Below the pieces are notes generated by a model. It saw nothing but the letters and a program-made list of their open reading frames with translations, ran no database searches and was not told the origin of the DNA. A program made the translations under genes and the position numbers. A stretch of 46,192 bases of DNA from Candidatus Poribacteria bacterium (lineage in GTDB: Bacteria; Poribacteria; WGA-4E; PCPOR2b): positions 1-46,192 of the forward strand of contig JAGWBT010000024.1 in NCBI GenBank assembly GCA_021295755.1, written 5' to 3'. Positions within the stretch are counted from its first letter, which is position 1, and each line of letters opens with the position of its first letter. This document shows positions 8,834-45,612 of this stretch, piece after piece.

Positions 8834-9931
8834 ATGAAAACTAGCCATAAAATCCTTTTTCAAGATGCGAGAAATTTGAAGGAAATCCCTTCAGAGAGCG
8901 TTGATCTGGTAGTTACCTCTCCGCCGTATCCTATGATCGACATGTGGGATGATATGTTTAGCACCCAGAACCCAGAAATTCGGAAGGCATTAGCAAATGG
9001 CGATGGTAGACAGGCTTATGAGTTGATACACAAGATTCTCGATTCTGTATGGGATGAACTGTTCAGAGTTCTAAGGGAGGGGCGATTTGCGTGTATCAAT
9101 ATCGGCGATGCGACGCGAAAAATAAAAGACGATTTCTGTTTGTATCCAAATCATGCACGAATCCTGAATTACCTCTTAGATATCGGGTTTTCGGCACTTC
9201 CTGATATCCTCTGGCGAAAACAGACCAACGCTCCCAATAAATTTATGGGTTCAGGTATGCTGCCCGCCGGTGCTTATGTGACTCTGGAGCACGAGTACAT
9301 TTTGATAGTGAGGAAAGGTTCCAAAAGAGAATTTAAGACAGAGGACGAAAAAAAGAACAGACGCGAAAGTGCGCTATTTTGGGAAGAGAGAAATATCTGG
9401 TATTCGGATATTTGGACAGATATTAAGGGAACAGAGCAGAAACTTTCTAATACGACCGCCCGATCGAGAAGTGCTGCATTTCCGTTTGATTTAGCGTATC
9501 GACTGATCAATATGTACTCTGTGAAAGGCGATGTGATACTCGACCCGTTTTTAGGCACAGGAACCACGATTGCAGCTGCGCTGACATCGGGACGCAATAG
9601 TATCGGTGTTGAAATCGACAAAAGTTTTCAGCAGGCAATTTGCCCTATTGTATGCGATATTGTCAATTTTTCAAACGACTATTTGCACGACAGATTGATA
9701 ACACATTTTGAGTTTGTCAAAAGCCGGATCGAAAATTCGGGACCTTTGAAATATACAAACAAACATTATGACTGTCCGGTGGTGACGAGCCAAGAACAGC
9801 ATATTCTGTTGAATGACTTAAAAGAGATCCAAGCATGCGGCGATAATATTTTTGAAGTCATGTATTCAGCAAAATCTCAAGGTACACGTCCAAAAGTCGT
9901 CGGACAATTGCCCCAAAAGAAAATTTCGTAA
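8834..9931 (+). CDS. Site-specific DNA methyltransferase (beta-class order, SPPY type)
   Basis: 365-aa adenine-N6 or cytosine-N4 DNA methyltransferase. The catalytic motif IV TSPPYP is near residues 25-30. The SAM-binding motif I, DPFLGTGTT, lies near the C-terminal third, followed by GVEID. Motif IV before motif I gives the beta-class order, and SPPY favours cytosine-N4 methylation. ATG 8834 was chosen because conserved sequence starts with MKTSHKILFQDARNL and the predicted promoter lies between 8678 and 8706; an upstream TTG frame at 8570 is unlikely. No restriction endonuclease is adjacent. The last 20 or so codons before the terminal tail (9815-9880) have a diverged second copy at 12105-12170. 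Confidence 0.87.
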   Translation: MKTSHKILFQDARNLKEIPSESVDLVVTSPPYPMIDMWDDMFSTQNPEIRKALANGDGRQAYELIHKILDSVWDELFRVLREGRFACINIGDATRKIKDDFCLYPNHARILNYLLDIGFSALPDILWRKQTNAPNKFMGSGMLPAGAYVTLEHEYILIVRKGSKREFKTEDEKKNRRESALFWEERNIWYSDIWTDIKGTEQKLSNTTARSRSAAFPFDLAYRLINMYSVKGDVILDPFLGTGTTIAAALTSGRNSIGVEIDKSFQQAICPIVCDIVNFSNDYLHDRLITHFEFVKSRIENSGPLKYTNKHYDCPVVTSQEQHILLNDLKEIQACGDNIFEVMYSAKSQGTRPKVVGQLPQKKIS

Positions 9932-10008
9932 ATATTTCGTAACCTTTTTCTGAGAAATTGGGACTTATCATCAGAAGGCCTTCTAAAAATCTTGATTTGG
10001 AATCCATT

Positions 10009-11403
10009 ATGGAAGTGTTGGCATCATTAGTAAGACAAGCGCAAGCTGGAAATCTGGACGCATACGGGGCGGTTGTCCATCGTTTTCAAGACATGGCAGT
10101 GGGTTACGCTTATTCGATACTTGGTGATTTTCATCTGGCTGAAGACGCTTCACAAGAGGCATTTATCGAAGCCTATCGAACCTTGGCTCAACTCCGTGAC
10201 CCCGCTGCTTTCCCGGGCTGGTTTCGCCTGATTGTCAGAAAGCACTGTAATCGACTCACACGTGGAGCGCGGCTTGAAATCATACCGCTGGAAACGGCCG
10301 TTGAGATGCCTTCCGCCGAGAAAAGTCCGGTTGAAATCGCTTTGGAACGGGAGCTGCAAGCGGACGTGTTAGCTGCAATAAAGGCGCTTCCAGAAAACCA
10401 GCGCTCAGTGACGACACTCTTCTATATGAATAACTATTCACAGAAAGAAATTTCCGAGTTTTTGGAGGTGCCTGTGACAACAGTTAAGAAGCGACTCCAT
10501 GACGCTCGGAAGCGGTTAAAGGAAGGATTGATTGATATGATGCGAGATGATCTGAGAGAGAGAGGTAAAGTCCGAGATCTCTATGACCTCGGCGAGCAAT
10601 TATTAATTATCTCAACGGACCGAATTTCGGCGTTTGATGTTGTGCTGCCAAATGGGATTCCGTACAAAGGACAAATCCTGACCGGACTCTCTGAGTTCTG
10701 GTTTGACTACACAAAATCAATCGTCGATAATCACATTATCACTACTGATGTTTCACAGTATCCTGACGTGCTGCAGACTGATGCGGAAGTGCTCAAAGGG
10801 CGATCCATGCTTGTGCGGAAGGCGAATCGAATTGATATCGAGTGCGTCGTGCGGGGATACATCGCGGGATCTGCGTGGTCGGAGTATAAACAGGACGGAA
10901 CGGTATGTGGGGAAAAGCTGCCGGCAGGGCTAACCGAATCAGAGCGGTTGCCGGAGCCCATCTTTACGCCTGCCACGAAAGCGAAACAGGGGGAACATGA
11001 TGAGAACATCTCAATCGCAGAGATGGAGGAGGCGATTGGAAAGGCTTTGTCGGATAAAATTATCCAGACTAGTTTTGCGCTGTTTGAAGCCGCGAGCGAG
11101 CATGCCGAAAAGGCCGGAATCATCCTCTGCGACACCAAGTTTGAATTTGGGCAAATTGATGGTCAACTGATTCTCATCGATGAGGTCTTCACCCCCGATT
11201 CATCTCGCTTTTGGCTCAAGGATGCGTATCAGCCCGGCAGTTCCCCACCCAGTTTTGACAAACAGTATGTTCGTGACTATCTGAGTGATATTGGCTGGGA
11301 TAAAGAGCCCCCGGCACCGGAACTGCCAGCGGAGGTCATCCGTCAAACCAGCGAAAAATATCTGGAGGCGTATCGCCTGATTGTTGGGCGGGAGTTGTTG
11401 TAA
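10009..11403 (+). CDS. purC: ECF-type sigma factor fused in frame to SAICAR synthetase (PurC)
   Basis: 464-aa fusion. Residues 1 to about 183 are a sigma-70-like factor: region 2 (FQDMAVGYAYSILGDFHLAE, then DASQEAFIEAYRTL) and region 4 (ALPENQRSVTTLFYMNNYSQ, then KEISEFLEVPVTTVKKRLHD). From residue 185 (RGKVRDLYDLG) to the end is a nearly complete SAICAR synthetase of the yeast ADE1 type, with TDRISAFDVVLPNGIPYKG, EPIFTPATKAKQGEHDENIS, DTKFEFG and DEVFTPDSSRFW. Only about 15 residues normally before RGKVRD are missing. The join is at about nt 10555-10561 with no stop or frame change. AGGA upstream of ATG 10537 could allow separate translation of PurC from MMRDDLRERGK. A TTG at 9958 is a possible longer start. 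PurC makes SAICAR from CAIR, aspartate and ATP in purine synthesis. The two halves have no known link; deletion or assembly chimera must be excluded. Confidence 0.85.
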   Translation: MEVLASLVRQAQAGNLDAYGAVVHRFQDMAVGYAYSILGDFHLAEDASQEAFIEAYRTLAQLRDPAAFPGWFRLIVRKHCNRLTRGARLEIIPLETAVEMPSAEKSPVEIALERELQADVLAAIKALPENQRSVTTLFYMNNYSQKEISEFLEVPVTTVKKRLHDARKRLKEGLIDMMRDDLRERGKVRDLYDLGEQLLIISTDRISAFDVVLPNGIPYKGQILTGLSEFWFDYTKSIVDNHIITTDVSQYPDVLQTDAEVLKGRSMLVRKANRIDIECVVRGYIAGSAWSEYKQDGTVCGEKLPAGLTESERLPEPIFTPATKAKQGEHDENISIAEMEEAIGKALSDKIIQTSFALFEAASEHAEKAGIILCDTKFEFGQIDGQLILIDEVFTPDSSRFWLKDAYQPGSSPPSFDKQYVRDYLSDIGWDKEPPAPELPAEVIRQTSEKYLEAYRLIVGRELL

Positions 11404-11470
11404 AGAACAACGCGAGCGACTATTCTTGGTGAATCAAGGCAACGAATGCCGAAGTAAGAAGATAGCACAG

Positions 11471-11490
11471 AGTCCCGATAAATCGGGACT
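11471..11490. repeat. Perfect palindrome with ATAAAT core
   Basis: AGTCCCGATAAATCGGGACT forms a 9-bp stem around AA. It shares the ATTTAT/ATAAAT centre with palindromes at 147-160 and 11513-11534, although the arms differ. Confidence 0.6.
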
Positions 11491-11512
11491 ACTGGTCAGT
11501 CTATCATAAGAA

Positions 11513-11534
11513 TCCCAAGCATTTATGCTTGGGA
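11513..11534. repeat. Perfect palindrome with ATTTAT core
   Basis: The arms TCCCAAGCAT and ATGCTTGGGA pair over 10 bp around TT. It lies 22 bases from the palindrome at 11471 and has the same central ATTTAT. Confidence 0.6.
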
Positions 11535-11590
11535 GCAGTCAAAGAATAAATCCTTCCGAAGGTTATGAACTTTCAAAAGGTTTGTTTTAC

Positions 11591-11630
11591 GGGCGATAGC
11601 AGCCAAGATTGGGTGTTATCGCCCTTTTTG
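11591..11630 (+). terminator. Rho-independent terminator downstream of sigma-purC
   Basis: GGGCGATA pairs with TATCGCCC, and an inner CCAA/TTGG extends the stem. CTTTTTG follows on the plus strand. It is the most likely end of the sigma-purC transcript, about 190 bases after the stop. Confidence 0.75.
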
Positions 11631-11639
11631 TTTGCGGTT

Positions 11640-11900
11640 AGACATCATTCAGACATTTTTTGACGTACTCTAAAAGCTGAAGCGTTTAGATTCTTAGCGA
11701 TTGTTAGGGCAAGCCCATTCAACTGTTTAGAATCCGCTTTCTAATTGTGCTCTCAATAGTGAAGCCGGGCTCTTACCTCCGGTCTTAATTCACCTCTTAC
11801 AAGGGGCAACGCCCTACCCCTATACCGGCGTCTGTATCCTGCTTCCCGGTGCCGGTAACTTTGACGTACTCCCACACCGCCGATAGATCAGGACAAACCG
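11640..11900 (-). mobile_element. Decayed IS200/IS605-type (tnpB) remnants, apparently nested
   Basis: On the minus strand CGGTGTGGGAGTACGTCAAAG (here 11859-11879) is identical to the right end of the tnpB element at 39802-39822. Further along, GGGTAGGGCG...AAGAGGT (about 11775-11825) resembles the 3' end of tnpB near 39683-39707 (NIHRVGRLPS). A second GAGTACGTCAAA end occurs at about 11660. I infer two right ends of related elements, one inserted in or beside the other, with the coding parts lost. Confidence 0.55.
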
Positions 11901-11960
11901 AATCGGAACCTAAAGGCTTAGGCTTTACCCCTAAAGGAAATTTTCGGTAAATTTCTGCTG

Positions 11961-11990
11961 TTGACAATGGCTGCCTAAGAAATATATAAT
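11961..11990 (+). promoter_or_regulatory. Near-consensus sigma-70-type promoter upstream of the HtrA gene
   Basis: TTGACA at 11961-11966 and TATAAT at 11985-11990 are 18 bases apart. It fires toward the MITE and the htrA gene, and no other plus-strand gene lies in between. If used, it gives a leader of about 145 bases that contains the whole MITE. Confidence 0.55.
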
Positions 11991-12001
11991 AATCTAAGTT
12001 G

Positions 12002-12097
12002 CTAGTACTCTGTCAGATAAGCTTTGCAATTATTATATATGTTATCGTTTGCTTTCAATCAATATACACAAGCATAATTTGCATGACAGTGTACTAG
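12002..12097. repeat. MITE-like element, copy 2 (terminal inverted repeats)
   Basis: The ends CTAGTACTCTGTCA (12002-12015) and, reversed, CTAGTACACTGTCA (12097-12084) match at 13 of 14 positions. The 96-bp body is A/T-rich and non-coding. A related copy lies at the left edge of the window. Confidence 0.6.
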
Positions 12098-12104
12098 TTA
12101 ATAC

Positions 12105-12179
12105 GACTTAAAAGCGGTTCAGGCATGCGGAGATAGTATTTTTGAAGTTATGTATTCAACGAAGCCTCAATATCTATAG
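12105..12179 (+). pseudogene. Diverged fragment of a DNA methyltransferase gene tail
   Basis: 12105-12170 aligns without gaps to 9815-9880 of the methyltransferase gene, with 55 of 66 bases identical. Read in the same frame it gives DLKAVQACGDSIFEVMYSTK, then PQYL and a stop at 12177-12179, against DLKEIQACGDNIFEVMYSAK in the full gene. Several differences are silent or conservative, so this is probably the last piece of a once-coding paralogue rather than a fresh copy. Confidence 0.75.
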
Positions 12180-44145: not shown

Positions 44146-44292
44146 GTTTTTTATTATAATACGTGATGGCAACATTTTCAACTATTTATTTCCTATGCGG
44201 CATAACCTTTGAGTAACTTAATGTGTCTAATTATTAAATAGCTTCGGTATCTCGTTGAAGAACTATCGTTGTTTTCGGATCGGGAGATTATT

Positions 44293-45612
44293 ATGCGTTC
44301 GGACGACGAAAAATTGGTATCTCAAACACTAGCGGGCGATCGGGACGCCTTCGGGGTGCTGGTCCACAAGTATCAGGAGATGGTCTACGCCTACGCCTTC
44401 CAGAAGGTTCGGAATGAAGAAGACGCGCAGGATGTCACGCAAGAGATCTTCTGGCGGGCATATCACGGTCTCTATCAACTCCGGCAGCCGCATCGGTTCC
44501 GAAGTTGGCTCTATACGATTATGTCCAACGAGTGTAAACGCCGACTCGCGAGTATTATCAAGACACGTCAACGTGAGACAGCGTTGGACGATGCTACAGG
44601 CGATGCCCTACGGATTGAACCGGCCCACACCGCTCCCACAGCAGGTTGGCAGGTGGATTTAGAGCAGGCACTCTCTGAACTTCCCGATGATAATCGAGTT
44701 GCGGTGCCAATGTTCTATATGGGTGACAATTCGTTAAAGGAGATCTCCGAATTTCTCGGTATCTCCGTCAACACGGTCAAGGGCAAGTTATATCGTGCGC
44801 GTCAGCAGCTTGGGAGCGCATTGTCTGACCGTTACGGTAGGCTTTTGAAAAGCTACAAACTCAAAGGAGGTTTTCTCATGCAATTCATGGAGCAAATTCA
44901 CCATATACCATCGCCAACAATGGTGTCGTCGTGGAGTAGCACAGCGATTGGCAAGATTCTATTTTCGCTAATCATGGCAGTGTGTGTTTTGATCGGAATT
45001 GCTAGGCATGGAACCGATTCGCCAACGAGCCTGCCAATGGATCGTATCGGGATGGAGGAGACAACCGGGGTGATACTGCTGGCACCTATCGCCGATGCAA
45101 CACGTTCATCAATCCCGGTTGTTCCGGCGCAGGAAAAGCTTCCGCGAGCCGGTTCTAGCCGTGCTTCAGAGGATCAGGGACGTCAGTTGGCTGCCCGTAG
45201 AGCAACGCCAGGCAGCGCCGGTGAAGCACAACGCTCTGCTGTTGTAGCGGAGGACGGAACTGAAAAACTGATTTTTTCTGGTCGAGTCGTTGACAACGAT
45301 GGCGTACCGGTAGCGGATGCTGAAGTGCTATACTCCGTAGGGCCCAATTCATCCGAATCTGCCACACGCACGGAGGTAGATGGGAGGTTTCGCTTTGAAT
45401 TTCTGCGTCCTGAACTCAAGAAGTGGGATCGTGTGAGCATTGTCGCCGCGCACCCCGAGCACGCAATTGGGTGGCAGAGTCTTCAACCCCAAAGCGCGGC
45501 TAACTATTACCCACAAGTAGAAGCGGGCAAACTATCAGTGGGCATCGGTATTTGCTTGATAGGCAAAAGTCAATATGATACATTTAATGGCATTGGTAAA
45601 CGACTATACTGA
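44293..45612 (+). CDS. ECF-type sigma factor with C-terminal transmembrane and carboxypeptidase-regulatory-like region, 3' end disrupted
   Basis: 439 aa. Sigma region 2 (residues 15-85: GDRDAFGVLVHKYQEMVYAY, DVTQEIFWRAYHGLYQL) and region 4 (about 130-185: LPDDNRVAVPMFYMGDNSLK, FLGISVNTVKGKLYRARQQL) are complete. A transmembrane helix follows at about 222-240 (GKILFSLIMAVCVLIGIARH). Past it lies a linker and a carboxypeptidase-regulatory-like beta domain (FSGRVVDNDGVPVADAEVLY). After about residue 410 the sequence stops looking like this domain, and an IS4-family transposase begins just downstream, so the tail is probably truncated by insertion. GGGAG precedes ATG 44293. The membrane tail suggests the factor could be held at the membrane until released. 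Confidence 0.8.
   Translation: MRSDDEKLVSQTLAGDRDAFGVLVHKYQEMVYAYAFQKVRNEEDAQDVTQEIFWRAYHGLYQLRQPHRFRSWLYTIMSNECKRRLASIIKTRQRETALDDATGDALRIEPAHTAPTAGWQVDLEQALSELPDDNRVAVPMFYMGDNSLKEISEFLGISVNTVKGKLYRARQQLGSALSDRYGRLLKSYKLKGGFLMQFMEQIHHIPSPTMVSSWSSTAIGKILFSLIMAVCVLIGIARHGTDSPTSLPMDRIGMEETTGVILLAPIADATRSSIPVVPAQEKLPRAGSSRASEDQGRQLAARRATPGSAGEAQRSAVVAEDGTEKLIFSGRVVDNDGVPVADAEVLYSVGPNSSESATRTEVDGRFRFEFLRPELKKWDRVSIVAAHPEHAIGWQSLQPQSAANYYPQVEAGKLSVGIGICLIGKSQYDTFNGIGKRLY

Follow-up and report, generated by a model that had tools for sequence, protein, structure and literature searches.

An ECF sigma factor continuous with SAICAR synthetase in Poribacteria, and the recurrent capture of housekeeping proteins by ECF heads

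We identify an open reading frame in which a sigma factor of the ECF type continues, without stop or frameshift, into the purine-synthesis enzyme SAICAR synthetase (PurC). It occupies positions 10009-11403 of the forward strand of a 46,192-nucleotide stretch of Candidatus Poribacteria DNA (hereafter the window), begins with ATG, with an in-frame TTG upstream at 9958, and encodes 464 aa in 464 codons. Pfam places Sigma70_r2 at residues 23-85 (E 8e-10), Sigma70_r4_2 at residues 119-170 (E 9e-14) and SAICAR_synt at residues 184-433 (E 2e-73), each above its curated cut-off. With sigma2 and sigma4 present and no sigma3 match in Pfam, the protein has the domain content of an ECF (sigma-70 group 4) factor, and it bears an extra domain past sigma4 on the same polypeptide; the extension domains described for ECFs (SnoaL, TPR, WD40, CRD, ZAS/TM) are absent, Pfam showing SAICAR_synt alone. 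AlphaFold modelled the whole chimera poorly (pLDDT 58, pTM 0.39), with a good head and a PurC part of low confidence because few PurC rows were usable. In this weak model the sigma4 helix passes almost directly into the first PurC strand, and its quality is such that no sigma-PurC interface can be claimed.

The head of the chimera (head A; 10009-10536, forward strand) comprises sigma2 (residues 23-85) and sigma4 (119-172). It is about 50-60% identical to the heads of ankyrin-repeat ECFs from Poribacteria, Scytonema, Acidobacteria and others, and its PDB matches are the ECF sigma factors SigH, SigW and SigE. All 41 of the 41 columns that are at least 85% conserved among relatives are kept in this head, a predicted binder of core RNA polymerase and a promoter. 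The RPSRDE linker typical of head-A ECFs is replaced by PurC, so inherited regulation should not be assumed.

The PurC module spans 10561-11400 (forward strand), from RGKVRD to the end, on the evidence of Pfam, alignment to ADE1 and DNA homology to native purC, which begins at 10563 and stops at the stop codon. An earlier sequence-only reading of this DNA had assigned the module to the ADE1 type with about 15 residues missing, and alignment to the yeast ADE1 structures 1a48, 1obd and 2cnq agrees, running from ARGKVRD through the C-terminus. Relative to native poribacterial PurC the deficit is about 20 residues, the segment before GKVRD being replaced, so that the N-terminus is incomplete. The main motifs seen in the ADE1 alignment are kept (GKVRD, TDRISA-DV, VRGYI-GSAW, TKA-QGEHDENIS, DTKFEFG and DEV-TPDSSRFW), and only one of 125 positions invariant in native PurC is altered (P219L). 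Across families f1 and f3, fused copies depart from native PurC at 0-2 of these positions. The fused PurC is a predicted catalyst, with near-native dN/dS (given below) as indirect support.

At the junction lies an internal Shine-Dalgarno sequence, AGGAAGGA (10520-10527), followed by an in-frame ATG (10537-10539), together spanning 10520-10539 of the forward strand. The sequence-only reading had singled out this ATG as a possible source of PurC alone, and its attention was well placed: the anti-SD energy is -7.5 kcal/mol for this codon, the first Met of an MM pair. Defining a strong SD as an anti-SD energy of -6 kcal/mol or below, we find one before the module-start Met in 33/35 PurC, DnaN and FtsZ chimeras and before 25/340 other internal Met codons; for the window this count took the second Met of the pair (-5.5). 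Fisher's p is about 4e-29, a value overstated by the relatedness of the genes. Among other long ECF tails, 36/77 have such a site somewhere near the end of the head, and the internal SD/ATG is accordingly enriched in, and not exclusive to, the PurC, DnaN and FtsZ chimeras. A module that starts at an in-frame ATG behind a strong SD suggests that free PurC is probably made alongside the full fusion.

The chimera sits in an insert. Direct repeats of 66 bp, 83% identical and both on the forward strand, flank the segment at 9815-9880 (the 3' end of a DNA methylase gene) and 12105-12170, which bears out the earlier impression of a rearranged neighbourhood. The segment between them, 9881-12104, is missing from the syntenic site in three relatives (G001, G003 and G004), where the methylase/DsbA side abuts HtrA and the window instead has about 2.2 kb that includes the chimera. 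Both flanks are syntenic with these relatives, so a false join would require two breaks at one site. Within the insert, a 97-bp dispersed repeat (12002-12098) matches, at 95% identity, a copy close to the native purC locus of contig C13. That locus holds the separate purC that the sequence-only reading had proposed to look for (C13:33358-34251, 299 codons, 92% protein identity to the fused copy), and its surroundings are conserved throughout the genus; the fused gene thus comes on top of a normal purC. Elsewhere in the window, 44242-45612 encodes a second extended ECF of 456 aa, which looks truncated or frameshifted when compared with its 1258-aa counterpart in G003 (L127).

The architecture is not confined to this genome. 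Our survey covered 85 Poribacteria genomes, drafts included, with a PurC match in 78/85, and found in-frame ECF-PurC genes in eight: the window genome and seven others, far beyond chance. Phylogenetic non-independence affects several of the counts given here. The carriers span three families of the phylum and five unrelated heads: A in the window genome (G000), B in G003 and G005, C in G038 and G057, D in G045, and E in G079 and G080. The in-frame fusion described in the sequence-only reading is thus borne out, and so are further proteins with sigma and SAICAR_synt domains, for which it had proposed a search. Its two cautions find no support: a chimeric contig, given the recurrence on five unrelated heads and the syntenic flanks, and a single recent deletion as a full account, given that recurrence. 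It had also considered that homologues might always be encoded as two genes; this holds for native purC, which stands separate, and fails for the extra copies, which are repeatedly fused. Almost all additional purC copies in the phylum lie behind an ECF head, and 5/8 carriers also have a native, unfused purC. In G005 and G045 the fused gene cannot be claimed as the sole PurC, as both drafts lack the genes that neighbour native purC.

A DNA tree of PurC intersperses fused with native copies and needs seven changes, at least five of them forced by the starred branches; a single origin appears in 0% of bootstraps. The head tree gives different neighbours to each PurC-bearing head: ankyrin-ECFs for A, TM-sensor ECFs for B, DnaN- and HTH-ECFs for C, and FtsZ-, FtsZ-DnaE- and DnaN-ECFs for D, with E standing alone. 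Together the two trees rule out a single ancestral fusion and indicate that PurC has been joined to ECF heads at least five separate times.

One of these events can be followed at an orthologous site. The head-B locus is empty of any ECF in G001 and G002; in G004 it holds a head, 92% identical in nucleotides to that of G003, that leads into a transmembrane and extracytoplasmic tail; and in G003 and G005 PurC takes the place of that tail between conserved flanks. PurC thus sits where a sensor domain otherwise would. This module swap is the one observation from which we infer that the extension would control sigma activity.

Substitution patterns argue that both halves are maintained. Pairs of fused PurC give dN/dS of 0.055 (G003f-G005f and G038f-G057f) and 0.16 (G079f-G080f); fused against native copies give 0.03-0.08, the same range as native pairs, and the ECF heads of PurC chimeras give 0.17-0.27. 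These values indicate purifying selection on head and module alike, at a near-native level for PurC, and on sequence evidence the window frame is a genuine gene under selection. A pseudogene reading of fused PurC is ruled out by dN/dS and the invariant sites. Synonymous divergence between G003f and G005f is 0.69 for PurC and 0.29 for the head, and dS between the fused and native copies of G038 (G038f-G038n) is only 0.13, from which it follows that PurC modules have been replaced by or converted from native copies.

PurC is one of several proteins found in this position. The ECF tails surveyed are mostly membrane-anchored propellers and related tails, with TPR, thioredoxin, ankyrin and HTH among the others; Sigma region-4 matches number 98 and 44 in two complete genomes (G050 and G048), most of them in long frames with membrane-anchored sensor tails. 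Tails also include intact DnaN (the DNA polymerase III beta clamp) with its three clamp domains, in frame at L119:1550-3361 (G038), L114:1339-3075 (G057), L150:15784-17529 (G050) and L159:1123-2862 (G024). FtsZ-type chimeras lie at L037:2522-4204 (G045), L152:2214-3878 (G048), L150:7975-9210 (G050), L151:3648-6503 (G057) and L286:1467-5567 (G041). They comprise full-length FtsZ, a class that keeps the GTPase half and lacks the C-terminal domain, and FtsZ that runs on into the PHP and polymerase III alpha parts of DnaE (frames of about 1360-1440 aa); the GTP motif is present in the fused FtsZ copies inspected. Chimeras with DnaN and with FtsZ are found widely in genus g8; the two often adjoin each other among ABC exporters, and their fused modules have dN/dS mostly of 0.15-0.3 (closest pair 0.32). 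Heads are shared between modules: the head C lineage bears DnaN and PurC, and head D bears FtsZ, FtsZ-DnaE, DnaN and PurC.

Several related arrangements were seen alongside these. The ECF-FtsZ gene of G045 adjoins its ECF-PurC gene, and G046 carries an in-frame DnaN-FtsZ fusion of 694 aa that has no ECF head (L157:1926-4010). On contig C49 of G038 (L145, L146), ECF-DnaN, ECF-FtsZ and ECF-TPR genes cluster among ABC-2, MacB and ABC exporter genes, together with S9 peptidase, DUF5694 and DUF4252 genes. Of two further ECF chimeras, L136:259-1842 (G057) and L254:639-2069 (G050), one carries a Bmp/PnrA-type binding protein (Pfam) and the other reads, by eye only, like a SAM methyltransferase.

We propose, with a probability of roughly 0.6, that in general terms the PurC module regulates the sigma factor to which it is attached. 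The C-terminal modules of ECF heads in this phylum (membrane-anchored propellers, ankyrin, TPR, thioredoxin, HTH) are exchangeable, and PurC, DnaN, FtsZ and FtsZ-DnaE would belong with them as soluble members of housekeeping origin. PurC would then serve as a cytoplasmic sensor or anti-sigma within the same polypeptide: the state of its ligands (CAIR, ATP, aspartate or SAICAR) or of its partners would gate the binding of sigma2/sigma4 to RNA polymerase. The internal start would probably also yield free PurC from the same mRNA. Excerpts of a published review describe C-terminal extensions of the sensor type as established in ECF41, ECF42, ECF57 and ECF238 (PMC8999054); most likely PurC controls its own sigma factor in the way that the extensions of ECF41, ECF42 and ECF238 do there. 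In this scheme, the control of sigma by PurC, the kind of signal sensed and the use of the internal start for translation are inferred. Two inputs would be compatible with it: the ligand state of PurC, reporting on purines, ATP or aspartate, or a PurC mimic being attacked or bound by a partner. Near-native conservation favours catalytic or ligand competence, and the sharing of heads with DnaN and FtsZ favours a logic that these modules have in common and that is wider than purines. The coupling of purine status to transcription that the sequence-only reading had suggested is possible; given the parallel ECF-DnaN, ECF-FtsZ and ECF-FtsZ-DnaE chimeras, what unites them may be something other than purine metabolism.

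A more specific reading, overlapping with this general one and weighed separately, is that the sigma head holds a copy of a vital protein attacked by phages, toxins or antibiotics, and that engagement of this bait (PurC, DnaN, FtsZ or DnaE) frees the sigma factor and turns on a response. The same few essential proteins have been chosen repeatedly, on the shared heads C and D; a native copy exists in 5/8 PurC carriers; fused PurC stays close to native and has even been refreshed (the low dS in G038); fused DnaN and FtsZ evolve at the dN/dS given above, one FtsZ class keeping its GTPase half only; and the ECF-DnaN/FtsZ genes sit among ABC exporters. DnaN and DnaE1 are, moreover, known antibiotic targets (PMC10817943, PMC8922275). 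Against this, a PADLOC search of ten proteins, the chimera and neighbours among them, matched no defence model or gene beyond ABC-type ATPase similarity, and no conserved effector gene was seen beside the chimeras. We also know of no attacker of PurC, and consider a bait role unlikely.

We regard as more doubtful still the view that linkage has no regulatory role. On this view C-terminal modules are often exchanged at ECF genes, and PurC is an additional copy of the enzyme that lies behind an ECF head and is expressed mostly through the internal start. The strong SD and ATG at the module start fit such a copy, ECFs are numerous (the 44 and 98 region-4 matches above), and intact motifs and near-native dN/dS suit a working enzyme; near-native constraint on PurC would also be expected of a mere second enzyme. 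Mere co-expression, however, would not lead one to expect a frame open through the join in every case and heads under purifying selection, nor that nearly all extra PurC copies in the phylum should lie on ECF heads, five times independently. That the gene is an assembly chimera or a decaying product of a one-off deletion, as a draft genome of 257 contigs and an insert bounded by a direct repeat might suggest, is very improbable given flanks syntenic with three relatives, the same architecture in seven other assemblies (including three same-head pairs) and purifying selection.

Taken beyond PurC, regulation by the attached module raises the tentative possibility, which we put short of even odds, that a class of Poribacteria sigma factors senses through captured essential machinery (PurC, DnaN, FtsZ, DnaE), whether as integrated bait or as a monitor of state. 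If so, damage to that machinery, or its status, would feed directly into a transcription programme, which suggests a new route by which the condition of core cellular machinery would act directly on gene expression. Recurrence makes the idea testable, as one can ask why PurC, DnaN, FtsZ and DnaE were picked repeatedly, and modular heads of this kind could serve as sigma-based sensors.

The sequence-only reading had called the architecture new, and we found no earlier description: the open-access full-text literature contained no sigma factor fused to a SAICAR synthetase or FtsZ domain, and nothing relevant on Poribacteria and ECFs. Like the ECFs with C-terminal extensions in the excerpts of PMC8999054, the chimera has a sigma2-sigma4 head and an extra C-terminal domain, and needs no canonical anti-sigma. 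What sets it apart is an extension that amounts to an entire housekeeping enzyme, its active-site motifs intact, which derives from a copy of the host's own gene, was acquired repeatedly and has a predicted internal translation start; in those excerpts no ECF group extends into a housekeeping enzyme or into a cell-cycle protein. Its closest head relatives, the ankyrin-repeat ECFs, differ in having an ankyrin or other tail and the RPSRDE linker where the chimera has PurC. From SAICAR synthetase itself (PurC/ADE1; 1a48, 1obd, 2cnq, 6yvq) it retains the full catalytic core from RGKVRD, and differs in that the N-terminal 15-20 residues are replaced by the C-terminal helix of sigma4; on other heads the PurC N-terminus is more complete. 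Trigger enzymes are metabolic enzymes that also regulate transcription. The chimera would resemble them in using an enzyme domain to sense a metabolite and control gene expression, and would differ in that the enzyme is fused to an initiation factor and its regulatory role is a predicted one; a metabolite-sensing role, if true, would make it a trigger enzyme acting directly on transcription initiation. Plant NLR immune receptors, for their part, have integrated decoys, in which a signalling protein is fused to a copy of a protein that is likely to be attacked. The ECF chimeras differ in being bacterial, in having transcription initiation as their output and in having no known attacker; a bait role, if true, would make them a bacterial analogue of these plant integrated decoys.
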